Made by a program: the position numbers and the translations under genes | In this document: positions 1 through 12,064 of the stretch, one piece after another | Numbering within the stretch: the first letter of the stretch is position 1 | Layout of the letters: each line of letters opens with the position of its first letter | NCBI GenBank assembly: GCA_002686195.1 | Contig: NZAS01000110.1 | Location: 1-13,315, forward strand | Source: Candidatus Pacearchaeota archaeon | GTDB lineage: Archaea; Nanoarchaeota; Nanoarchaeia; Pacearchaeales; GW2011-AR1 | DNA: 13,315 nucleotides | Reading direction: 5' to 3' | The notes under the pieces: generated by a model | What the model saw: only the letters and a program-made list of their open reading frames with translations | The model's database searches: none | Told to the model about the DNA's origin: nothing

Positions 1-668
1 GCATCATTCGGCGCACTGTCACCAACCCATGTCCCACCAACATCTGTAGCAGAAATGAATAGCCGATCTTCCAGACCATCATCCAAAGAACCAGCCATCA
101 CTAAGTAGCGTCCATGAGCAACAACAAAACGAGCAATCGGTGTGTTAGTGTTGGTTTTGTCAGCCAAATCCTGTAAGAAGGTAACGTTCATACTGGTGTC
201 GATGATGAGTGGCTTGTTGACTCCATTACAGACAATCAACGATCCATTGAATTGTGCAAAACTAGCGAAAACTGTAGTGGCCCATCCAGACGGAGCCCCA
301 GGCAACGCTCCGGCCAGGTTATCATTCCAAATCTCTGTAACAATCCCGGAGCTATCGATCTTAACAAGCTTGCCGTTGGCTCCAACACAAACGATAAAAT
401 TGTTAAAGTACTCACAATTGATGATTTCGTCTAGGTAGTCTTCTGTGTCAGCAAACAATCGGGTTCCCGGACGAACGGAGTTTGATCCGTCAATACTTCG
501 TTGCATGTTCTCTAAAAGCTTGGAGAACTTGGTATCAAGATTCAAGTCATTGTCAACAACATTCCACCCACCACTGAAGTCACGGATGGTAGCATCAAGT
601 AAGACATTCTTCCGCTGGACTTGCGGGGGCTTACCGTCTGGGCCTTGTGGGAATAGAAATGTATCCAT
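1..668 (-). CDS. Tail nozzle/stabiliser-like structural protein, N-terminal part
   Basis: The frame is open from an ATG at 668 to the left edge with no stop, giving the first 222 residues; the C-terminus lies outside the window. The start overlaps the stop of the upstream gene by one base (TAATG), which suggests coupled translation; no strong Shine-Dalgarno sequence precedes it. The protein begins MDTFLFPQGPDG. After about residue 27 it contains DFSGGWNVVDNDLNL, then VRPGTRLFAD near residues 65-75, followed by beta-strand-like repeats (FIVCVGANGKLVKID, SLIVCNGVNKPLIID, RYLVMAGSLDDG). This alternation of short hydrophobic strands and Gly/Asn/Asp turns resembles the beta-propeller-like nozzle or tail-stabilising proteins of podoviruses (T7 gp12 or P22 gp10 type role). 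That assignment is inferred from fold style and from its place after the adaptor gene, not from a diagnostic motif. A large beta-structured receptor-binding or hub protein is the main alternative. Confidence 0.6.
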   Translation of the reverse strand, partial: MDTFLFPQGPDGKPPQVQRKNVLLDATIRDFSGGWNVVDNDLNLDTKFSKLLENMQRSIDGSNSVRPGTRLFADTEDYLDEIINCEYFNNFIVCVGANGKLVKIDSSGIVTEIWNDNLAGALPGAPSGWATTVFASFAQFNGSLIVCNGVNKPLIIDTSMNVTFLQDLADKTNTNTPIARFVVAHGRYLVMAGSLDDGLEDRLFISATDVGGTWVGDSAPND

Positions 669-684
669 TAGAACGGAATCTCAT
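639..684. repeat. 46-base direct repeat, copy A (downstream of the 344-residue gene)
   Basis: This copy matches 1715-1760 over 46 bases with five substitutions and no gaps. Read on the minus strand it covers the last codons of the 344-residue gene (Glu-Ile-Pro-Phe-stop) and the first ten codons of the nozzle-like gene (MDTFLFPQGP). It is therefore a repeat of a gene junction rather than of a single gene. Confidence 0.9.
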
Positions 685-1702
685 CATCTAGGGAAATTGG
701 AACCTTGTCTTTTGTCTCCTTAATCGTCGTGTCCACGGTCTGTGCGGGCTGGTGAGTTAGTTGTTTCGGAGCTTCCGGTTTCTGACGGAATCGTTTGACT
801 AGGGCATCGAACAACGCCTTCCCCTGCTTTATAGCCTTTGGCGCTTTCGATAGTTGTGTTGGTCCTGGGAGGAATAGCCCTTCCTTGGCATCTATGGCAG
901 CCCGAGCAGCCAGGTCCATCGCGTCTTGAGGGGTGACATCCCTGAACACGTCGTCACTGGGCTCGTCGATGTATCGCTCTCCTTGAGCTTCTTCAAATGC
1001 CTTGTGCCAAGGATGGTTTGCGAATAAGTCCCTGTCTCTGGCACGCAAGTCTTCAAACAATCCTTTGGAAAGTTCCCAGAGCTTGTTCCTTCTTTCGTCT
1101 TGAACTTCCCAACCAAGGTGCCCAGAAGTGCGACCGGCTTCGGCATCGTATATGTCCTGTTCCGCCCGCAACTCTTCGTAGGCCTCCATATCGGTAAGCG
1201 GCCCCCCTTCTCTTGTCTCCCCCACATAGTATAGGTCTAAGAAGTCAGCTAACTCTTTCGCAGCACCAGGATACGCTATGGGCTCCTCTGGAGGATTCGT
1301 TACGCGCATATCCATACTAATATAATCCTCCAAGTCTATCTCATTAAACAGCTCACCAGAGCCGTAATTGAGGTATGGCTCCTCAAGACTGGTTGCCGAT
1401 GTTTTGTGCGCGTCACTCAAGCCCTTGCGAATACGATCGAACAACTCGTAGTCAGAGATTCGGTTCGCATAGTCCCTCTTGTACCCGATCTGTTTCAGAG
1501 CATCGAGGATTACCGGATACCTGTCTTGTCCTCTCGCATGGATCAGGTCATTCATAATCTGTTGGGCCATCGCTTCGTTCGAAGAGGCTGCCGGGACGAG
1601 TCCTTCGATAGCCTTCATTAAAGGGCTTGCCATCGGCAAAGCAGCAGCTCCTCCGCCCATAAGGCGCAGGAAAGCCCTTCGCGTGATTTCGTCCATCGCC
1701 AT
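668..1702 (-). CDS. Unknown protein with Tat-like N-terminus and SSB-like C-terminal tip
   Basis: This 344-residue protein is not recognised. ATGs at 1702 and 1696 are both possible starts. Residues 5-22 contain TRRAFLRLMGGGAAALPM, which fits the twin-arginine export consensus (S/T)RRxFLK followed by a weakly hydrophobic Gly/Ala stretch; no clean AxA cleavage site follows. The body is hydrophilic, helical and charged, with no visible catalytic motif. The last residues are SLDDEIPF, nearly identical to the C-terminal tip of bacterial SSB (E. coli DDDIPF). The gene sits between the adaptor-side genes and the nozzle-like gene and is flanked by the 46-base direct repeat, so it looks like an insertion. 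Its place suggests a virion or ejected protein. The Tat-like and SSB-like ends point to different compartments, so at least one may be coincidental. Its coding reality is supported by its length and by the one-base stop/start overlaps typical of this cluster. Confidence 0.75.
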   Translation of the reverse strand: MAMDEITRRAFLRLMGGGAAALPMASPLMKAIEGLVPAASSNEAMAQQIMNDLIHARGQDRYPVILDALKQIGYKRDYANRISDYELFDRIRKGLSDAHKTSATSLEEPYLNYGSGELFNEIDLEDYISMDMRVTNPPEEPIAYPGAAKELADFLDLYYVGETREGGPLTDMEAYEELRAEQDIYDAEAGRTSGHLGWEVQDERRNKLWELSKGLFEDLRARDRDLFANHPWHKAFEEAQGERYIDEPSDDVFRDVTPQDAMDLAARAAIDAKEGLFLPGPTQLSKAPKAIKQGKALFDALVKRFRQKPEAPKQLTHQPAQTVDTTIKETKDKVPISLDDEIPF

Positions 1703-1714
1703 CCATCAGTCTCT

Positions 1715-1744
1715 TGGGCCTTGTAGGAATAGGAATGTGTCTAT
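1715..1744 (-). pseudogene. Relic of a nozzle gene start
   Basis: Directly after the stop of the 220-residue gene, ten codons read I-D-T-F-L-F-L-Q-G-P, against M-D-T-F-L-F-P-Q-G-P at the true nozzle start (668 downwards). The ATG has become ATA by one change, and a stop follows a few codons later (RD-stop). Two of the other differences are synonymous. The simplest reading is that the nozzle gene once began here, directly after the 220-residue gene, before the 344-residue gene was inserted. It is too short to be certain, and a shared non-coding function could also conserve it. Confidence 0.45.
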
Positions 1745-1760
1745 TAGAAGGGAATCTCAT
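1715..1760. repeat. 46-base direct repeat, copy B (upstream of the 344-residue gene)
   Basis: This is the partner of 639-684, with 41 of 46 positions identical. On the minus strand it covers Glu-Ile-Pro-Phe-stop of the 220-residue gene and the inactivated nozzle start. The two copies lie 1076 bases apart, a span that equals the 344-residue gene plus one repeat unit. Confidence 0.9.
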
Positions 1761-2406
1761 TTGTATCTATAAATTTGCTTACATCTTGGTTACGCATAAA
1801 TCTATCTACAAAATCTCCTGCTAGTCTTGGATTAGTATTCTGTAGACTTTGTAATTTGGGAGCAATATCTTGTATTTTTGCTCCACCTTGTACTGCCGCC
1901 ACCAACTCATCAAATAATCTTTGTTGTGCCACCATTGAAGGATCAGCTCTTGGAGTTACTCTTGCTGCACCTTCAATGTCATCTAATATAGTTTCTATAG
2001 AGTAATCTGGACCACCAAAAGGATCGCTATGCTGTGTTACAGCAGTCGTCCCAGTGCCTCTGGTAATAGCATCTGCCTCATTAAAACCTTTCTGATTTCT
2101 AGTAGCCATACCGACTTGCCCATAGGCATCATCGATGAACTGTTGTAGCTGATAGACCTTTTGCCTTGGTTCGTCTACTAAAGCAGCCCTCGCGGCTAAC
2201 GGGTCTGTGCCTTGTGCAGCATTTGCAGCGGCTCTACTAGATGTAACAGCTTGGGCAGCCGCTCCCGGATCGGGGATAACGCCTACAGTTTCTCCCGCAG
2301 GGTTTACTATTCGTTGTCCTGCACCACCGGCGCGAGACAGAGTATTCTCGCCCTGCGCCATAAGCCTTTGTAGGATTGCTTGAAGAACTGCATTGCTAGG
2401 AGGCAT
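1744..2406 (-). CDS. Unknown Ala/Gln-rich helical protein ending in an SSB-like tip
   Basis: The product is 220 residues and not recognised. The ATG at 2406 lies two bases after the adaptor stop and is preceded by GTGGAG about 8 bases upstream, which supports this start. The N-terminus PPSNAVLQAILQRLMAQG is a predicted amphipathic helix whose SNAxLxAI pattern recurs at the start of the 589-residue protein. A Gly/Pro turn-rich stretch and Ala-rich helices (about residues 47-80) follow, then a helical C-terminal half (for example VAQQRLFDELVAAVQGG). The last residues are FIDTNEIPF; the final EIPF resembles the SSB tip but with fewer acidic residues before it. By eye the gene is more AT-rich than its neighbours, with several 60-base stretches of 30-40% GC, which hints at separate origin. 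A small virion or head-tail joining protein is possible from position only. Confidence 0.7.
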   Translation of the reverse strand: MPPSNAVLQAILQRLMAQGENTLSRAGGAGQRIVNPAGETVGVIPDPGAAAQAVTSSRAAANAAQGTDPLAARAALVDEPRQKVYQLQQFIDDAYGQVGMATRNQKGFNEADAITRGTGTTAVTQHSDPFGGPDYSIETILDDIEGAARVTPRADPSMVAQQRLFDELVAAVQGGAKIQDIAPKLQSLQNTNPRLAGDFVDRFMRNQDVSKFIDTNEIPF

Positions 2407-2408
2407 CT

Positions 2409-3077
2409 CTACAACTCCACGAAACTGAATGTTTTCGGAATACTCGTCACCGGATCAAGGCTGATCGGGGCACTGTTGAAGTTGTTCTTGAGTTGCTTCA
2501 CTCTTGCTTCAAACAAGAGTTGGAACTTCTGCGTTGCATTGGGATTGGTGCCATCGTCTTCCAGATAGTCAAACACCGCTCCCAAGATTAACGCTTGGTC
2601 GTCAAAGTCAACCTCAACAGTGGAAGTGAATGTAGCTGGTCTAGTACGATAGCCCACTACAATGTCACCCGTGGATGCTAACGGCCAGACCCTAAACACA
2701 CGAGTCGTCTTATTGTCGAATGTTGGCCCTAACGCTTCATAGTGAATGGGCGTTGTGCCAGCCAGTTCGAAAGGATTAGTCGTCAGCTTCGAAATCTTTG
2801 TCAAAGCCGTGTTGGAGTTCTCCGGGAAGACCACGGCGATGTCTTCAAATCGTTTAATGAGATCAGTTAAGTCTGTAGTGACGACTCCTAACGTTGCGTC
2901 AAGAGTCCACTGCGACCAACTAAAGAACTGAGGCCAAAAGACCTCATCAAACAGAACATCGAACTTGTGCTGAATCATTTCAGCAATTCGATCTTCCGCG
3001 TATACTTGCACACCTGTACCGGCCACCATTGACAGGCGGTCGGCTGTTCGTGCGACTAGTTGTGTTAGCGTTGCCAT
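2409..3077 (-). CDS. Head-tail adaptor-like protein
   Basis: The product is 222 residues. The N-terminal helix ATLTQLVARTADRLSMV is followed by RIAEMIQHKFDVLFDEVFWPQFFSWSQWTLDATLG, an acidic-aromatic helical pattern. Then come a segment linking parameters to a mean value (LIKRFEDIAVVFPEN), a beta-rich middle with YEALGPTF and a VFRVWPLASTGDIVVGYRTRP strand pair, and a C-terminal helix (FQLLFEARVKQLKNNFNSAP). This layout (helical bundle, F-W-x-W-type aromatic cluster, then beta strands and VGYRxRP) is common in phage adaptor proteins that dock on the portal, of the P22 gp4 or T7 gp11 kind. It lies between the capsid genes and the nozzle-like gene, as expected for that role. No Shine-Dalgarno sequence is seen in the 15 bases before the ATG; that region is pyrimidine-rich and follows the hairpin at 3086-3126. 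Assignment is by pattern and context. Confidence 0.6.
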   Translation of the reverse strand: MATLTQLVARTADRLSMVAGTGVQVYAEDRIAEMIQHKFDVLFDEVFWPQFFSWSQWTLDATLGVVTTDLTDLIKRFEDIAVVFPENSNTALTKISKLTTNPFELAGTTPIHYEALGPTFDNKTTRVFRVWPLASTGDIVVGYRTRPATFTSTVEVDFDDQALILGAVFDYLEDDGTNPNATQKFQLLFEARVKQLKNNFNSAPISLDPVTSIPKTFSFVEL

Positions 3078-4585: not shown

Positions 4586-5545
4586 CTAGGCGTTAATCAA
4601 GTACGCATGAGTACGGAACGACTTCCACAGGCACCACTGTCCCTGCCACACAATACGACGGCCATGAGCGTCAATCGTCCATGGGGCGACCAACTCTTTG
4701 ACCTTCATGTTGACGTGTTTGAGGACGTGCAAGCGGAGGTACTTGCTGTTGATGAAGTACGCGGCGTTAACCGGGCAATCCTCATCGTACAGCATGGGAA
4801 TGTTCTGGTGTTTGACGCCAGAGAATCCCAAGTCCATCATCTTCTTGCCAGAGTTCGACTCCGACAGGTGAATGACGATCTTATCGCGCACTGCGGTTCG
4901 ATAGTGCCGATACAAGTTTCTGCCAGTGAGGATGACATCGGGCTTGTCGCCTTTCAGCGTCAAGTCCATAAGAATGTCGTCAAAGGCTTCTTCAATGTTC
5001 GTACTATCGAGGTTGCTGTTGAAGTCGTATGCAGAAGTGCGCCACTGGGTTTCATTGGCACGGTTGATCGTGCCAACAGTCCCCGTAGTGGGATCAGCAG
5101 GAATAAGAAGTGCGAGTCCCTGCGGGTCAGTGCCCGCTCCCGAAGCGTAGAGATATTCGGAGAACTTCTCCTTAATACTCTCTTCAAGAACGTCGATCTT
5201 GGCTTTCATCAGTTTGAAGATTTGAGCCGCGCCACGGTTCTCATCTTCTTCCTGATCTGAAATCACAACTGAACCGCCTACGCGAGCCCAGTTGTAGGTT
5301 ACAGTGTCGAACTCACTCGTCTGAGCAATCGGCTGTTCGTCGAAGTACTCATACGAGGTGATGTTCGGATTACGACCCAACGTCAGAGGGTTCGTAATCT
5401 CATGTCCACCGTCCTCAAACTCCACTCGGCTGTTCGCAAAAGCCCACGCCATAAGCGCATTGGACTTGATAGAAGCTAGGATCAGCTTCTTGCGAGACTT
5501 AGTGAGGGTAGATTCAAGAACAGTGGCAATCGGTGTGCTTGCCAT
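4586..5545 (-). CDS. Major capsid protein (HK97-like fold)
   Basis: The product is 319 residues and would form the icosahedral shell. ATG 5545 is preceded by TTAGGAACAAGCA. Layout fits HK97-type capsid proteins without a large delta domain. A short N-arm precedes an extended loop (about 50-100, ending YNWARVGGSVVISDQEEDEN), with a strand that folds back. A long spine helix follows (about 104-133, AAQIFKLMKAKIDVLEESIKEKFSEYLY). After it come an Ala/Gly turn (ASGAGTDPQGLALLIP), GTINRANETQWRT, and P/A-domain elements PDVILTGRNLYRHYRTAVRD and YFINSKYLRLHV. The C-terminal strands include GRRIVWQGQWCLWKSFRTHAYLINA-like residues at 296-319. The run Nx(R/G)GAAQIF...LEESI...GLALLI followed by NRxxxxxWR is typical of this family. 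Position after a scaffold-like gene and before decoration genes strengthens the call. No separate protease gene is visible in the window. Confidence 0.88.
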   Translation of the reverse strand: MASTPIATVLESTLTKSRKKLILASIKSNALMAWAFANSRVEFEDGGHEITNPLTLGRNPNITSYEYFDEQPIAQTSEFDTVTYNWARVGGSVVISDQEEDENRGAAQIFKLMKAKIDVLEESIKEKFSEYLYASGAGTDPQGLALLIPADPTTGTVGTINRANETQWRTSAYDFNSNLDSTNIEEAFDDILMDLTLKGDKPDVILTGRNLYRHYRTAVRDKIVIHLSESNSGKKMMDLGFSGVKHQNIPMLYDEDCPVNAAYFINSKYLRLHVLKHVNMKVKELVAPWTIDAHGRRIVWQGQWCLWKSFRTHAYLINA

Positions 5546-5558
5546 TGCTTGTTCCTAA

Positions 5559-6539
5559 CTAGTCGTTTATACCAGCTTCAGCCATCGATTCCTTGATGAT
5601 GTCATCGAATGACTTACTTACATCGGCCACTACAGGGGTGTCAGTTGTATTACCAACGTTAACACCGCCTTCGGGCGGTTGCGGCGTATTGTCACCGGGA
5701 GCAGGGGTTCTCGCGGTCGCTTCTTGCTGCAACTGCTCCAGGGATTTCGTCCAGTCTAATCCTTTTGCAAGGTAGTAGTTCTGGAGTTTGTAATACGCGG
5801 CTTCTGGCGACAAGCTAGGTTCTTGTGTGAGAAGTCGGGCGAGTGACCCTTCATGCACGGCAGCATCGGGATGTTGGGTTGAAAACTCGTTGTAGATTTC
5901 AAGAGCACGATTATCTGCCGCTTGTGTGTCAGCTCGGGTTTGGTGTTCGCTCAAAAGTGGAGCAAGCGCCGTATCTAGCATTTGCTTGACGGCAGAAGCA
6001 TCCATGTTGCTGCCACCAAGCGCATCTATATTATGCCCTGCTGCTTGGGCCTGTGTCAATAGATATTGTATCGTGGCAACGGGATCAGTTTTGTAGGATG
6101 CTACGATCTGGGCACCAGTCGTAAGCTCCTCTGGAGAGAGGCTATACTGTGTGCCAAGATTGCCCGCAGCACTAATAGCCTCGATTTGAGCCTTAGAAGT
6201 GTCTAAGTCTCTTTGGAGACTGTCTGCCCTTGCTTTCTCCCTTTGCGCCGTTTCGTAGAAGCGCCTTTCTTTTCCTCCTTCGGCGATAACGTTTCCGTCT
6301 CGGTCGGTGAGGGCTTGGGGACCAGCAGACGGCCTTGTTCCTTGGTCTGTTCTAGTGCCTTCCGCAACACCTTGTTTACTACCGGCTCCTTTGCCCGTTC
6401 CTGTAGTGCCCGTCGCCTCTGTACTATCTGTCGTGCCAGCTTCCGTGCTGCTAGTGGATTCATCCCCTTCTCCGATGCTATCTAGGATAGCCTCATCAGT
6501 CGAAAGAACGACTTCTTCTTCTTCTGTATCTTCAGCCAT
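5559..6539 (-). CDS. Capsid scaffolding-like protein
   Basis: The product is 326 residues. ATG 6539 is preceded by GGGGAAGAG just after the portal stop. The N-terminus is very acidic (MAEDTEEEEVVLSTDEAILD). Residues 25-75 are Ser/Thr/Gly-rich and presumably disordered, followed by a charged coiled-coil stretch (about 88-123, with RRFYETAQREKARADSLQRD). The central part is helical (PEELTTGAQIVASYKTDPVATIQYLLTQA; about 180-275 with Gln/Ala-rich helices). A Pro-rich linker (PAPGDNTPQPPEGG) precedes a short C-terminal helix (VADVSKSFDDIIKESMAEAGIND) that could bind the coat protein. This composition and the place between portal and major capsid gene match internal scaffolding proteins of tailed phages, which guide prohead assembly and leave before packaging. 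Scaffolds share little sequence, so the assignment rests on order and composition. Confidence 0.78.
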   Translation of the reverse strand: MAEDTEEEEVVLSTDEAILDSIGEGDESTSSTEAGTTDSTEATGTTGTGKGAGSKQGVAEGTRTDQGTRPSAGPQALTDRDGNVIAEGGKERRFYETAQREKARADSLQRDLDTSKAQIEAISAAGNLGTQYSLSPEELTTGAQIVASYKTDPVATIQYLLTQAQAAGHNIDALGGSNMDASAVKQMLDTALAPLLSEHQTRADTQAADNRALEIYNEFSTQHPDAAVHEGSLARLLTQEPSLSPEAAYYKLQNYYLAKGLDWTKSLEQLQQEATARTPAPGDNTPQPPEGGVNVGNTTDTPVVADVSKSFDDIIKESMAEAGIND

Positions 6540-6550
6540 AACTCTTCCCC

Positions 6551-8758
6551 TTACTGTGCAACAGGTGGCGTCTGTGGCGGCGCACCCTGCGGTGATGCAG
6601 AACCATTACCACCTTGAGGCTGTTGCGCCAAGGCTGCCTGTAATGCTTGCTGCGGCGGAACTCCTGATTGGATAGCAGCTTGTACTTCTTGCTTCACTTC
6701 AGGAGGTAGTTGCGCTAGTAATTGTTTAAGCTGTTCGGGACTGGCATTAGCAACTTCCAGCCCGCCTTGGGCACCATCACCAGGAGTTGTTTGTTCTGCT
6801 CCAGCCTGTTGCATGACAGCATCAATAAGCTCCTGCCAGTCTTCCTCTCGCATGGTGATTTCATCAAAAGCTTCTTGCATGACTTCAAGCATGACTTTGA
6901 GGACAGGCCCAGGTGCTGCGTTGACAAACTGACCAAGAACTTGTCCAAGCTCAAGAGCCTCTTCTTTCTTCGCAGCACTGGTCGGCTTCTTGGTAGAACC
7001 ACCTACAACCTGCATAGAGAGTTGAGAGATTTCTGCCCTCTCCATATTCTCCCACTGTTCTCCTTCTTCGCCAATGAGAGAGATGACATCATCTCTAGAC
7101 ATATTCATCAAGCAGAGTTGTGTAACTCCCCAGTAAATGGCACCAATCCAGTCTTCAATCTGGTCAGACTTCTCATCTACACGCATGTTGGCGGATTGAG
7201 TGTTAGCTTGTACAGCGGCCTTGTTTGTGTTTGTCTTGAACTGTTCACCACGGAGAACAGCACCAACAGATGAGATACGATCAATCGCCCGATACTTAGC
7301 TTCCTTGTCGAAAATCTTTTCGAACTGGAGTGACGGAGGAACGATTGACGCGATTACATCGTTCAGCTTAATGTCTGTTGGGACATTGAGTCCTCTTGCT
7401 GTACCGTCATCGCCATTAAGCACAGCGGTCGCATCTTCCTGTGATATCACATTGCTATTGTAGAAGATGTTACGTCTGGCCCAACGACGGGCACGGCGAT
7501 CCTCGTCGGTGATCTCATTGATGGCATCCTGTTGATCCAGATAATATGTGACCTCACCTTTAGTGAGTGGACCGTTAGGACTTTCAAAGAATGTGAGCGG
7601 GAAGAACGGGAAGTAGGTGTCAAGACTTAGAGGATCATCCCAAACCCAGATCGGCCACGTCCAATCCTTGCTGTTGAACATGAGAACACGGCGAGTCACT
7701 TTATCCCAGACGATGTAGACTTTAGTCATCTTCGCCTTGTTGAATGACTCTTCATCAGCGAAGCCAAACGACTTGGCAGTGCTATCCTTGTCTTCGGAGA
7801 AGATACTGAAGTTGTCAGCGTTCTCAACCCCTTCATCGCCTTCAAGAGTGGCCTTCATAACATGAGAAGGCTGGAAGATGGACTTGTATTCCTTGCTACT
7901 CCTTCCTTTCTTAGCATACTTGGCTAAGATGTATTCAGTAGGTAGCATGTCCTCTTCAATGACCCAGTTAGCATCAGAGAGGTCGATCTCCTTCGCATTG
8001 GGATCAACAATGATCTCAAAAGGCGTCTTGACCTTTGCGAACGGCCCAGAAGGCTGTAAGATGTCGATAGACTCTTCAAGAGCTTGTAGCTTGCCTTCAA
8101 TCTCGACAATCTTCTTGGCGTCTTTAGCTTTCTCTAGTTCCTTGGACAACTTCCCCAAGTCAATCAGAGCTTGCTCACTACTCTCCGCCTTGTTCGTCCA
8201 ACCAATCTTGACCCATGCCCGATTGGTCAAGAGACAGGTAACAACAGCTCGTTTGGCCTTCGGCTTCATGTTGATGCCGGGAGCCGCCTTCCGAGCGCCT
8301 AAGACATTTACGAGGCGCTCAAGGATAGTAGCAAGGGGCTTCCTGGCCTCTACATTGGACGTGAACTCTGCTCTAGGGTTCCGAGCGTACAACGCGGGCA
8401 CCATAGTCGTCACATTGGCGAAGACGACGTTCTCTGTCTCTGTAATGTTGTCGTTGAGTTTCCGATTGCCTCTGGTGTTGCCAGAAGCGTTTTCTTGTCC
8501 CTCTCTATGAGGGAGTTGGTCGTTCTCAAAGTACCTTATCGCTTCCGACCACGCCTCACGTACATCTTTAGTATGCACCTGGCCTTGCGCCACGCGAGAC
8601 TTCCAAACCTTGCCCGTTGCTTTGGAAACGGGGATCTTACTATCACCCACAACGCGATAAGCAGGATCACGCCGCTTACGACGGCGAGAGGGCTTTGCGT
8701 CTCCGAGGGATGCGTCAATGGTTGCATCTACCTCTTCAGGAATTTGATCGTCTGCCAT
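6551..8758 (-). CDS. Portal protein
   Basis: The product is 735 residues, a size usual for large podovirus-type portals. It would form the dodecameric ring at one capsid vertex through which DNA enters and leaves. ATG 8758 overlaps the upstream stop (TGATG). The N-terminus has a basic patch RRRKRR (25-30). A stem and wing region includes EAIRYFENDQLPH, ENVVFANVTTMVPALYARNP (about 110-128) and a coiled-coil insert (about 200-232). Aromatic-rich wing strands follow (KDWTWPIWVWDDPLSL, YFPFFPLTFFESPNGPLTKGEVTYY at about 364-406). The pattern YLDQQDAINEITDEDRRARRWARR (about 406-429) is the portal-family segment with the conserved Asn/Asp helix. The end (about 640-735) is Gln/Pro/Ala-rich and likely disordered or barrel-like. 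It lies directly before the scaffold and capsid genes, the standard order. Aside from the Gln-rich tail nothing looks aberrant. Confidence 0.87.
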   Translation of the reverse strand: MADDQIPEEVDATIDASLGDAKPSRRRKRRDPAYRVVGDSKIPVSKATGKVWKSRVAQGQVHTKDVREAWSEAIRYFENDQLPHREGQENASGNTRGNRKLNDNITETENVVFANVTTMVPALYARNPRAEFTSNVEARKPLATILERLVNVLGARKAAPGINMKPKAKRAVVTCLLTNRAWVKIGWTNKAESSEQALIDLGKLSKELEKAKDAKKIVEIEGKLQALEESIDILQPSGPFAKVKTPFEIIVDPNAKEIDLSDANWVIEEDMLPTEYILAKYAKKGRSSKEYKSIFQPSHVMKATLEGDEGVENADNFSIFSEDKDSTAKSFGFADEESFNKAKMTKVYIVWDKVTRRVLMFNSKDWTWPIWVWDDPLSLDTYFPFFPLTFFESPNGPLTKGEVTYYLDQQDAINEITDEDRRARRWARRNIFYNSNVISQEDATAVLNGDDGTARGLNVPTDIKLNDVIASIVPPSLQFEKIFDKEAKYRAIDRISSVGAVLRGEQFKTNTNKAAVQANTQSANMRVDEKSDQIEDWIGAIYWGVTQLCLMNMSRDDVISLIGEEGEQWENMERAEISQLSMQVVGGSTKKPTSAAKKEEALELGQVLGQFVNAAPGPVLKVMLEVMQEAFDEITMREEDWQELIDAVMQQAGAEQTTPGDGAQGGLEVANASPEQLKQLLAQLPPEVKQEVQAAIQSGVPPQQALQAALAQQPQGGNGSASPQGAPPQTPPVAQ

Positions 8759-10527
8759 CAGTTTACTACCTGCAACATTGTCTCAAACGCTTGGATAGGC
8801 GTTTGGCCTTGGGAGAGGAAAGCGTCGAAAGTCTCCGTAACTTCTGAAGGCTCTACACGGCCTTGAGTCCGGCGGATCAGAGCATTAAGAAGTTCTGACT
8901 CTTCGGGAGGACGTTTTGCCGCGGGTGTTGGAAGGCTCTTCTCTGGCATACTCTCCCTTAAGAAGTTGCGAACATCTCCTTCAAAGTCTGTGGGAGGCCC
9001 TTCAACCGCTCCAACGTTTCTAACTTTTGGAGGCTCAGGTGGAACGTCGTCAATGGATTTAAGCATTTCAATCATGTCTTGGGTGATGCCTTCTCCCTCT
9101 GACAGTCGGGGAGTAGTTGTCTGCTTAGTCCTGAAAACCGTTCTCGCACCTTCTGGGACTACGGGCTGCCCACTAACGCCAAGGTTAAGAGTTCCTTGCG
9201 ACCCTTTTAACGGTCTAACCAGTCGGTCCTCGATTGCCAACATAGCATCCAAGTCTTTCGCTTTCCAAGCCTCGTCCACTTTTTGAGAGATGTCCCTTCT
9301 AGTAGCGAACATCCTTTGTTTATAGGGCGGCAAAGCTTCAAACTCTCTCTTAGAGATGCTGCCGAAAGGAACTCCTAAATCTCTTGTTAAAGGATCAAGA
9401 TGCTTTTCGAAAATACGTTTGCGGACTTCATTCACTTGTCGAGCTTTCGTCGCAACCTTTGCTTCAAATCCTGCAACATCTCTGTCCATCCCAACGCCTT
9501 CTTTGTTCAGGATGGCGCGGATGTTTTGCACGTCTTCCGCTTGCTCCTTCCCGAAGAGATCAAGCATGGACTCTTGAGTTTCCGCGGCGTCCATTGTTTC
9601 TTTGCCCTTTGGCACAGAACTTTTTCTCTGAACACCCTCGGCTGGCCCTTTCATCTCGTCTGTAGAAGGTTCGCCTCGTCCTCCACTTCTCTTCTTGGCG
9701 GGAAGGACGTGTCGAGACTCACCCTTCTCCAGCAATGGATTAGCCGGTTGTCCTCCGGGCTTCACCTTGTCTCCCGGACGCACTTTCGCGTCTATAGGGT
9801 TGAACTCCGTCCCAGGCTGTGGGCCAGCAAACGTATTGTCTTCGCTGAACACGTTTGGAGGAGTTGCCTCACTTTTAACGTTACCTGGGCCGCCTTTAAC
9901 TCTCGTCGCTGGATCAAATTCTTTAAGTCGGGTCTTCAAGAACTCAAGGTAGCTTAAGGTGGATTCAGAAGGCCCAAACGGAGAGGTATCTATTTGTTCT
10001 TGAACTTCAGCGATTAACGCTCGGATACCATCGGGGTGTTTAGGGAAAGTCCTTGGAGGAGTAACCTCTGCTTCTTCTGCCATGCCTTCAAGTAAACTAC
10101 GCTCACTAGACATCTTAGGAACAGACTTTCCTGTGCTTCCTTCTTTCTTGCCTTTAGTGCTGACAGGGCGGCCAGTTTTAGCTTCTTGAGCGTGAACTTT
10201 TGCAAGCCCCTCAGCTTCTTTACCCGCCTTCTCAACAGCAAAGTCTGGTGCTTGTCTGGTTTCTAGAGGATCAGCCCCGAAACGGAAAGAATCCTCTGGC
10301 CCTACTCCTGAAGAATGAAGAGGCAGTGCCCTAGAGCCACTGGAAACTCCCCCACCACTTTGTAACTGTTTAATGACGGCTTCATCTGTGAACTCTGTTT
10401 TGCCTTCAGCGTGCGGCGGGCGTGTTCCACCACCAACAGGAATGTCGTCAGACAGAGGAACTTCAGCACGCTTTTTCCCGCCACTGAGCAACACTCGAAT
10501 AGCCTCTAGAAGAGCATTACTAGCCAT
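8758..10527 (-). CDS. Large disordered protein of unknown function between terminase and portal
   Basis: The product is 589 residues from ATG 10527, which overlaps the last eight bases of the terminase gene and has GAGAAGG 10 bases upstream. A longer reading from a TTG at 10584 is less likely. No known family is recognised. The N-terminus MASNALLEAIRVLLSGGKKR is a short helix, then SDDIPVGGGTRPP. Residues 40-310 are Pro/Gly/Lys/Glu-rich and low in hydrophobics, so mostly disordered, with one helical stretch (about 166-205, DGIRALIAEVQEQID, LEFLKTRLKEF). Residues 315-440 are charged helices (MLDLFGKEQAEDVQNIRAIL, FEAKVATKARQVNEVRKRIFEKH, ISQKVDEAWKAKDLDAMLAIEDRL). The C-terminus has ELLNALIRRTQG and FDAFLSQGQTPIQAFETML, another helix pair. 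It is transcribed with the packaging genes. An internal virion protein, scaffold or packaging accessory are possibilities from position only. Confidence 0.72.
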   Translation of the reverse strand: MASNALLEAIRVLLSGGKKRAEVPLSDDIPVGGGTRPPHAEGKTEFTDEAVIKQLQSGGGVSSGSRALPLHSSGVGPEDSFRFGADPLETRQAPDFAVEKAGKEAEGLAKVHAQEAKTGRPVSTKGKKEGSTGKSVPKMSSERSLLEGMAEEAEVTPPRTFPKHPDGIRALIAEVQEQIDTSPFGPSESTLSYLEFLKTRLKEFDPATRVKGGPGNVKSEATPPNVFSEDNTFAGPQPGTEFNPIDAKVRPGDKVKPGGQPANPLLEKGESRHVLPAKKRSGGRGEPSTDEMKGPAEGVQRKSSVPKGKETMDAAETQESMLDLFGKEQAEDVQNIRAILNKEGVGMDRDVAGFEAKVATKARQVNEVRKRIFEKHLDPLTRDLGVPFGSISKREFEALPPYKQRMFATRRDISQKVDEAWKAKDLDAMLAIEDRLVRPLKGSQGTLNLGVSGQPVVPEGARTVFRTKQTTTPRLSEGEGITQDMIEMLKSIDDVPPEPPKVRNVGAVEGPPTDFEGDVRNFLRESMPEKSLPTPAAKRPPEESELLNALIRRTQGRVEPSEVTETFDAFLSQGQTPIQAFETMLQVVN

Positions 10528-12064
10528 GACGAACAGACCTTCTCTCTTCTTGTATGTCTCGTTCGCCCCACTTGAACCAACCAACCTTCTTAGGTTCAGA
10601 GGCTACCAAGAGCTTGGTAATGTTAGGACGGTTGGACAGCATGTACTTGGTAGTGTCCATAGCGTGATCGTCCTTGTCCACAGGCTTGTCGATCTGTTCC
10701 CCTGTGGTGTTCTTTTGCCAGTAGTAGTCACTGATCTCATCAATCCACCATTCGAGTTTATCGGAGACATACAAAAACGGTGCATTGTACTCCCCGGTGA
10801 TGGGATTTTGATGGTTCCGCTGTGGGATGAGATACTGATTGACCTTAACAATTCCATTGGTGATGTCATTGTTGCCTCGGATACACATGACTCCTTCTTC
10901 TAACATCATGTCTGCAATAGACTTGCCGACAAGCTTCTTGCCGACAGTCTTGCGACGGAAGATGTCAGGATCAGCGAGAACCATGTTTGAGGCGTCTAAC
11001 GAGTACTCTTCCCGCTTCTCTTTAATGCAGTCGAGATGTTCTTCAAGAGATTGTTCCTTCTCGTACCCGCCGTCCATGAGGAAGACGTTTCCATGATTAT
11101 CAACAAAGCCACAGAGATAACAAAAAGGAACAGCAAGTCCATAGTCGTACCCTTCCAAGATTGTTAACTTGTCAGCGGTGATCTGGAGCTGCCTAAAATA
11201 GTGTTCAATGGAATGATGGGACAGGACGTGGACAGCTTCGTTGAAGGCAGGGTAGACCAAGCCTTCGTAGCTCGCCCACTGTCCTAGCAGGAAACGAGAA
11301 CGCATTTGGCCTTTGTAGGATGCCTCAAGCGTCTTAATATAATCCTCTTCGAGGTTTTCCTTGTTTTCATATGTTGAGCCTTCAAATAGGTCAACAATCG
11401 GAACCGGAAGCTTGTTTTCGTCGAGTAACATCTTCCCGTTTTCATCAGTCTCACAAAGCAGGTCGTCATTCAAGACACCGTTCTGAAGGTCATGGATGGG
11501 CTTGACGATCTTGCGATACACCCAGTTACGAGTTGGGTTGGTAGTGATAATGAACTGGCGAGGCCCAGTAAGGGGCATCGTGGGATCGTCGCCCTCGTAT
11601 CTCGCCATGCCACGAAGCCGTCCTAAGAGATCGAGGAAGTCCTTGTGGACGATCTCTGGGTCTTCCATCTGGTCTACTACGATAAAGTCGTAAGTAGCGG
11701 ACAATAAGTTGGAAGTGGTAGCTTCCTGTTGCTTTCCCTGCTGTGCTATGTACCGGAAGTTGATGGTCGTCCCGTTCTTGAGTGTGCATGTGTTACTCGC
11801 ATTGGCACTCTTGGGGAATGATTCAATCCAATCGGAAGGACACCACTTGATAAACTCTTTACGTAAAGTATCATTTAACTTGGGATACGTCGAACGCGCC
11901 GCAAGAATGTTTGCGCCGGGGTAGTCTTTAGCAACTTGATCCAACTTGATACAAGCGGCAGAGGTCTTGCCATTAGCAAAACCCCCACCGTACACTTGTA
12001 TCTTTGCGCGGGACTTGAGAAACCTATCTTGTAGGCTGTCCCTATGAAGACTGAATACTGGCAC
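10520..12064 (-). CDS. terL: Terminase large subunit
   Basis: The product is 514 residues, the usual terminase length. It is the motor and nuclease that cuts concatemeric DNA and pumps it through the portal using ATP. The start is a GTG at 12064 that shares one base with the upstream stop (TAGTG); an in-frame TGA lies a few codons further upstream. ATPase motifs are visible: Walker A GGGFANGKT (26-34), Walker B FIVVDQMED (127-135, with E134 or D135 as possible catalytic acid) and coupling motif FIITTNP (171-177). The nuclease half has GYDYG with Asp307, ADPD with Asp365, and DDHAMD near 465-470, matching the acidic RNase H-like site. GQWASYEGLVYPAF (261-274) separates the two halves. Gln132 in place of the common acidic residue after the Walker B Asp occurs in other terminases. 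The gene ends inside the start of the 589-residue gene. Confidence 0.95.
   Translation of the reverse strand: MPVFSLHRDSLQDRFLKSRAKIQVYGGGFANGKTSAACIKLDQVAKDYPGANILAARSTYPKLNDTLRKEFIKWCPSDWIESFPKSANASNTCTLKNGTTINFRYIAQQGKQQEATTSNLLSATYDFIVVDQMEDPEIVHKDFLDLLGRLRGMARYEGDDPTMPLTGPRQFIITTNPTRNWVYRKIVKPIHDLQNGVLNDDLLCETDENGKMLLDENKLPVPIVDLFEGSTYENKENLEEDYIKTLEASYKGQMRSRFLLGQWASYEGLVYPAFNEAVHVLSHHSIEHYFRQLQITADKLTILEGYDYGLAVPFCYLCGFVDNHGNVFLMDGGYEKEQSLEEHLDCIKEKREEYSLDASNMVLADPDIFRRKTVGKKLVGKSIADMMLEEGVMCIRGNNDITNGIVKVNQYLIPQRNHQNPITGEYNAPFLYVSDKLEWWIDEISDYYWQKNTTGEQIDKPVDKDDHAMDTTKYMLSNRPNITKLLVASEPKKVGWFKWGERDIQEERRSVRHG
10538..10544 (-). promoter_or_regulatory. Shine-Dalgarno that sets the start of the 589-residue gene
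   Basis: GAGAAGG on the minus strand lies 10 bases before ATG 10527, inside the terminase coding sequence. It favours 10527 over the upstream TTG at 10584, which has no comparable site. Confidence 0.6.

Follow-up and report, generated by a model that had tools for sequence, protein, structure and literature searches.

Two adjacent proteins encoded in the window, by which we mean the whole stretch of 13,315 nucleotides analysed here, end at their exact C-termini in acidic residues followed by Ile-Pro-Phe, an ending that resembles the C-terminal tip of bacterial SSB. The ending is found in three mutually unrelated protein families (A, B and C) whose genes are frequently exchanged in a single slot between the adaptor and nozzle genes of a group of uncultivated phages, and it is kept as a peptide in two of them. 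We consider it somewhat probable (roughly 55%) that the tip would dock the slot proteins onto one or more host or phage proteins having a pocket for the SSB tip. The original prediction had noted the tips on the two window proteins and proposed that a virion or late protein carrying such a tip could compete for host SSB partners or be recruited by them. Its observation is confirmed and extends beyond what was first noted, and its interpretation appears plausible and partly supported.

The two tip-ending proteins and their genomic surroundings

On the minus strand the window encodes, in this order, a terminase large subunit, a 608-residue protein, the portal, a 326-residue protein (in the position of a scaffold gene), the major capsid protein, proteins of 125 and 347 residues, the adaptor, the 220- and 344-residue proteins and the start of the nozzle gene (Table 1). 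The label of the putative adaptor is supported by PF24175 (SU10_adaptor), which its relatives in L119 and L245 match above the cut-off and which the window protein matches with 26.1 bits, under the cut-off of 27. The name nozzle is a label taken from position and from the original prediction, without a supporting family match: no Pfam match was obtained for three relatives and no PDB match for one, and the one match in PHROGs is labelled amidase (E 5e-6). In annotated phage records, nine distant matches (24-27% identity) were found for the capsid protein and no relatives for the 220-residue, 344-residue and adaptor proteins or the window DNA. Two scans of genome contigs gave nothing on the host, and SSB (PF00436) was found in none of 34 and none of 12 records, which are fragments for the most part.

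Table 1. Features of the slot and its borders in the window
Feature	Position	Strand	Basis
Gene called nozzle (start), downstream border of the slot, cut off by the window end	1..668	-	open frame MDTFLFPQGP; 54 loci match the frame
344-residue slot protein, family B, twin-arginine-like start TRRAFLRL	668..1702	-	ORF; relatives P0006, L009, L030, L245, P0008, L020
Tip codons DEIPF (last five) of the 344-residue protein, with an Asp codon before them	671..685	-	
Nozzle-start relic without ATG, reads IDTFLFLQGPRD then stop; similarity clear to about 1717	1706..1744	-	
220-residue slot protein, family A	1744..2406	-	ORF; relatives P0002-P0004; family A alignment
Tip codons NEIPF of the 220-residue protein; stop codon 1744-1746	1747..1761	-	
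Adaptor gene, upstream border of the slot	2409..3077	-	PF24175 SU10_adaptor

The SSB-like tips are strictly C-terminal in both ORFs, as had been noted, the 344-residue protein ending in ISLDDEIPF and the 220-residue protein in FIDTNEIPF. Acidic residues followed by Ile-Pro-Phe thus close both proteins (LDDEIPF and DTNEIPF), and most of their relatives keep this ending. That neither protein otherwise looks like SSB is borne out by searches of Pfam and PHROGs, which gave no SSB match for either and place neither in the SSB family with its OB-fold ssDNA-binding domain.

A hypervariable slot with exchangeable genes

The slot was surveyed independently of the tip, using an adaptor query, which yielded 63 viral loci, and a nozzle-start pattern, which yielded 41 stretches. 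The stretch from adaptor to nozzle proved hypervariable. After removal of duplicates there were 54 complete slots, 27 of them empty, with -9 to 102 bases separating the adaptor and nozzle genes, and 27 occupied. Of the 27 occupied slots, 19 encode one or more proteins that end in IPF and 21 one or more that end in PF; the eight occupied slots that lack an IPF end are L016, L019, L031 (NSPF), L046, L047, L068 (DTPF), L082 and L086. Small slot proteins without the tip occur in L015a/L016, L019, L041b, L044a and L046.

ORFs ending in IPF number 20 among 765 distinct ORFs of at least 60 residues in the loci of that count (spurious ORFs included), and all 20 lie inside the slot. A Fisher test of 20 in 33 slot ORFs against 0 in 732 others gives p about 4e-31, which is a rough value, the 33 being a hand count from a different tally than the 765, spurious ORFs being included and related sequences not being independent. 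A short motif may arise by chance, but with every IPF-ending ORF in one slot and 19 of the occupied slots carrying one, we regard the probability of a chance origin as negligible.

On a tree of the adaptors, slot occupancy switches at least 10 times and slot content at least 18 times; this is a quick tree with 53 adaptors, all but that of L051, in which 22 of 45 inner branches are open. In one supported clade, near-identical adaptors adjoin an empty slot, an A gene, a B gene or a C gene. These repeated changes indicate that the slot genes are exchangeable accessory genes, and the 27 empty slots imply that the function of the slot is dispensable. Phage morons and other accessory cassettes are gained and lost between conserved neighbours. 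The slot genes likewise come and go between conserved flanking genes among close relatives and can be classed as a moron-like accessory cassette. They differ from morons in that their cargo is unrelated and yet one C-terminal peptide is common to all tip carriers. We know of no other case of unrelated phage cargo sharing one C-terminal peptide.

Three unrelated families share one ending

Clustering of the slot proteins gave three main families, A (the type of the 220-residue protein), B (the type of the 344-residue protein) and C. Profile comparison indicates no relation among them (probabilities 1.5, 0.6 and 0.9%), and the sole profile match between A and C is the tip itself. When the slot proteins were scanned against Pfam, PHROGs and PADLOC, no family scored above its cut-off except a Tat signal in L245; hits below threshold were not taken up.

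Family A has 20 members by clustering, some linked by single linkage (e.g., L067 and L068), and 21 with L031, which was added by alignment only. The protein ends in IPF in 17 of the 21 and in PF in L067, L068 and L031, and L044b is without the tip, so that Pro and Phe are kept in 20 of 21 members, including the variants DTPF and NSPF. In an alignment of 17 family A proteins with a mean column identity of 23%, the final Pro and Phe are invariant and the Ile is nearly so. In one genome the N-terminal 31 residues are shared between a family A protein (L032:6672-7361) and the product of the gene between terminase and portal (L100:5363-6841). The 608-residue protein of the window (8758-10584) begins in a similar-looking way and has SDDIP at an internal position further on.

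Family B comprises seven distinct proteins, five of which carry the tip (the window protein, P0006, L009, L245 and P0008), L245 being a biased member that was found via the tip. The two others end in SDKKPL (L030, identical to P0007) and NSNG (L020). The L020 protein (4889-5809) ends out of frame, and another frame contains DEIKF and a stop at the nozzle junction, which is perhaps a shifted and decayed tip. The start of family B resembles a twin-arginine signal (window 1610-1702; L245:9416-10360): L245 scores 25.6 bits with the Pfam Tat signal (cut-off 22.7) and L009 falls just under the cut-off with 22.2 bits, and the window protein gives no match. In L020 about 85 residues precede the twin-arginine motif, so the motif of family B may not be an export signal.

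All five members of family C, two of them near-identical, end in IPF. Structural models of families B and C (mean pLDDT 43.6 and 53.9) are too poor for use, and in both of these poor models the last residues are without regular structure. The family C model (L088:2356-3411 and relatives) has a partly confident mixed core with no significant structural match, Foldseek returning none at E up to 0.001.

Duplicated junction and selection on the last codons

The original prediction offered as an alternative that the residues shared by the two window proteins simply come from a duplicated junction. The duplication itself is real: 39 of 45 bases are identical between minus-strand copies starting at 685 and 1761, and the repeat extends over the five codons that close each of the two genes and over the opening codons of the nozzle gene. 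The extra Asp pair of the 344-residue protein, which had been placed outside the repeat, lies outside for one Asp, the Asp at position -5 (GAT) standing at the repeat edge and facing AAT (Asn). Behind the 220-residue gene, the relic IDTFLFLQGPRD resembles the nozzle start MDTFLFPQGP, and a likely history is that a B gene carrying its own tip arrived behind the A gene through the nozzle start. As the only source of the shared residues the junction fails, because relatives of both proteins carry tips of their own: those of the 220-residue protein end in PDDIPF, EDDIPF and PDDIPF, and those of the 344-residue protein in LDDDIPF, TDDEIPF, LNDDIPF and NEDIPF. The repeat hence accounts for two tips standing close together and not for the existence of the tips.

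Substitutions in the last three codons were counted over whole families, with or without the tip, for the members with DNA (18 in A, five in B including two without the tip, and five in C). In family A the silent changes clearly prevail (pS 0.69, pN 0.16), in family C they are the only ones (pS 1.00, pN 0), and in family B the silent excess is small (pS 0.59, pN 0.47). For the five codons upstream of the tip, which are not aligned by homology, pS and pN are 0.69 and 0.65 in A, 0.70 and 0.55 in C, and 0.66 and 0.62 in B. The mostly silent change in the last codons of A and C indicates that selection acts on the peptide; the tip is kept as a peptide in these two families, and in B the indication of this is weak.

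These data also bear on a cause at the level of DNA, in which recombination borders or a duplicated junction would form the 3' ends and the peptide would arise as a by-product. The junction repeat of the window and the frequent gene exchange at TAATG borders would fit such a cause, but the tip DNA differs in 15 of 22 counted cases (proteins ending in IPF only), most changes in A and C are silent, tips also occur away from the nozzle border (the 220-residue window protein and L041a), and the sequence is absent from empty slots. We therefore hold it to be very improbable. On the slot census and the silent codon changes together we reject both the duplicated junction and chance as the source of the tip.

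The same ending in other viral contigs

Viral contigs were scanned for DDIPF before TAATG, which gave at least 120 matches, of which 119 were read, corresponding to 104 distinct complete proteins. Among these 104 listed proteins, 20 match SSB in Pfam; PHROGs labelled single strand DNA binding match 20, 16, 13 and fewer of them, in overlapping sets, and a Gp2.5-like PHROG family matches seven. A single slot-family member, L245, is among the 104. In the corresponding scan for DEIPF, one slot-family protein, L348, was found among the 119 matches listed, and its adaptor and nozzle start are identical to those of the window. The ending DDIPF thus seems to mark largely ssDNA-binding proteins elsewhere, from which the slot proteins stand apart, although many of the 104 are unlabelled and a predominance of ssDNA-binding proteins is partly an impression.

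A different role for the peptide would be that of a tag for virion cargo, in which a phage structural protein (adaptor, nozzle, portal or core) would read the free C-terminal D-E-I-P-F and unrelated accessory proteins would enter the particle, the likeness to SSB being convergent. The slot is placed among structural genes, and it is gene position alone that speaks for the window slot proteins as putative virion proteins. A cargo tag would also suit a peptide common to accessory proteins of three unrelated families, and end tags are suggested by the recurrence of the family A N-terminus (51.6%, E 5e-7) on the product of a gene that, in one genome, lies between those for terminase and portal. 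Against this, the peptide corresponds to the SSB tip residue by residue, the same ending elsewhere, among the viral contig matches listed, is largely that of ssDNA-binding proteins, and none of the 765 ORFs ends in IPF outside the slot, which implies that other virion proteins do not use the tip. On balance we find a cargo tag rather unlikely.

The tip might also be recognised by a C-terminus reader of another kind, such as a protease, or the adaptor of one, that sets the level of the protein. Sharing that is limited to the terminal residues is compatible with any such reader, but acidic residues followed by Pro-Phe suit the rule of the SSB tip better than any degradation tag known to us, and we judge this option improbable.

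Proposed docking onto partners of the SSB tip

The two window proteins are exchangeable accessory proteins, encoded within the phage morphogenesis operon, whose C-terminal end copies the bacterial SSB tip. If the tip serves in docking, its last Phe would enter a hydrophobic hole in the partner, the carboxylate of this Phe would meet a basic lip and the acidic residues would meet a basic ridge. In the SSB-tip pockets described, the last Phe is buried, the carboxylate is held by basic residues and the Asp residues are met by a basic ridge (PMC10164576, PMC5872125), and in the case of RecG, loss of the Phe or a change of the Pro weakens binding (PMC10164576). The slot tips retain the residues that are important in this binding. 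They match the tip of E. coli SSB (DDDIPF), as given in these sources (PMC5872125, PMC10164576), in exact terminal placement and in acidic residues followed by Ile-Pro-Phe, a likeness drawn from sequence, but they sit on proteins without an SSB domain and in a phage morphogenesis operon. Candidate partners in the host would be RecO, RecG, PriA, ExoI, DnaG or Pol III chi, and on the side of the phage its own Sak4-like annealing protein. Docking could either recruit the partner enzyme to phage DNA or block the enzyme. We infer here that the tail is flexible and that it docks, as well as what it would dock onto and how the phage would gain.

Phage proteins that depend on such tips have been described: Sak4 of phage HK620 is reported to require the NDYPPF tip of its SSB (PMC5928155), and YbcN, a phage Orf-family protein, to bind tip mutants of SSB less (PMC4118853). 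The HK620 pair resembles the present case in that a phage protein ends in Pro-Phe, an ending that the HK620 protein requires to work with its partner (PMC5928155), and in that a Sak4-like protein is encoded in one contig of a relative of the window phage. It differs in that the group of the window phage has the tip on slot proteins, whereas weak SSB candidates near Sak4-like genes (two contigs) end in RVRAA and RVHAA and are fitted better by a 'DNA polymerase' PHROG. In a related phage, a DNA polymerase A with an N-terminal uracil-DNA glycosylase-like domain is encoded at L120:7144-9603.

Several observations argue against docking. The Tat-like start of family B does so since export would keep the protein away from SSB partners in the cytoplasm, the empty slots (27 of 54) speak against docking on cytoplasmic partners, and the silent excess in the last codons of B is small. 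Slot proteins without the tip also count here, together with the eight occupied slots of 27 without an IPF end. The original prediction had named homologues lacking the terminal Phe and acidic residues as refuting, and such homologues exist in part: two of the seven distinct B proteins and L044b in family A are without the tip, as are small unrelated slot proteins, and most other relatives keep it.

Significance of a shared tip on unrelated cargo

In the openly licensed literature, as judged from search listings, we recognised no report of SSB tips on non-SSB proteins in phage virion operons. Beyond docking as such, we tentatively suggest, at somewhat less than even odds, that the slot collects unrelated proteins, each with an SSB docking tip, so that a varying assortment of proteins would be brought to the hub of genome maintenance in the host or the phage. 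During DNA entry or packaging these proteins might compete for SSB partners or recruit them, and in family B the tip could link such partners to a targeting signal of the Tat type.

It is unusual for unrelated, exchangeable proteins to end in the same peptide, and this hints at a common docking trick. The sequence of a phage accessory gene often says little about its role, and a terminal peptide common to unrelated cargo offers a handle on their partners. If the tip does bind SSB partners, it would represent a general means by which these phages direct proteins to the centre of cellular repair and replication.
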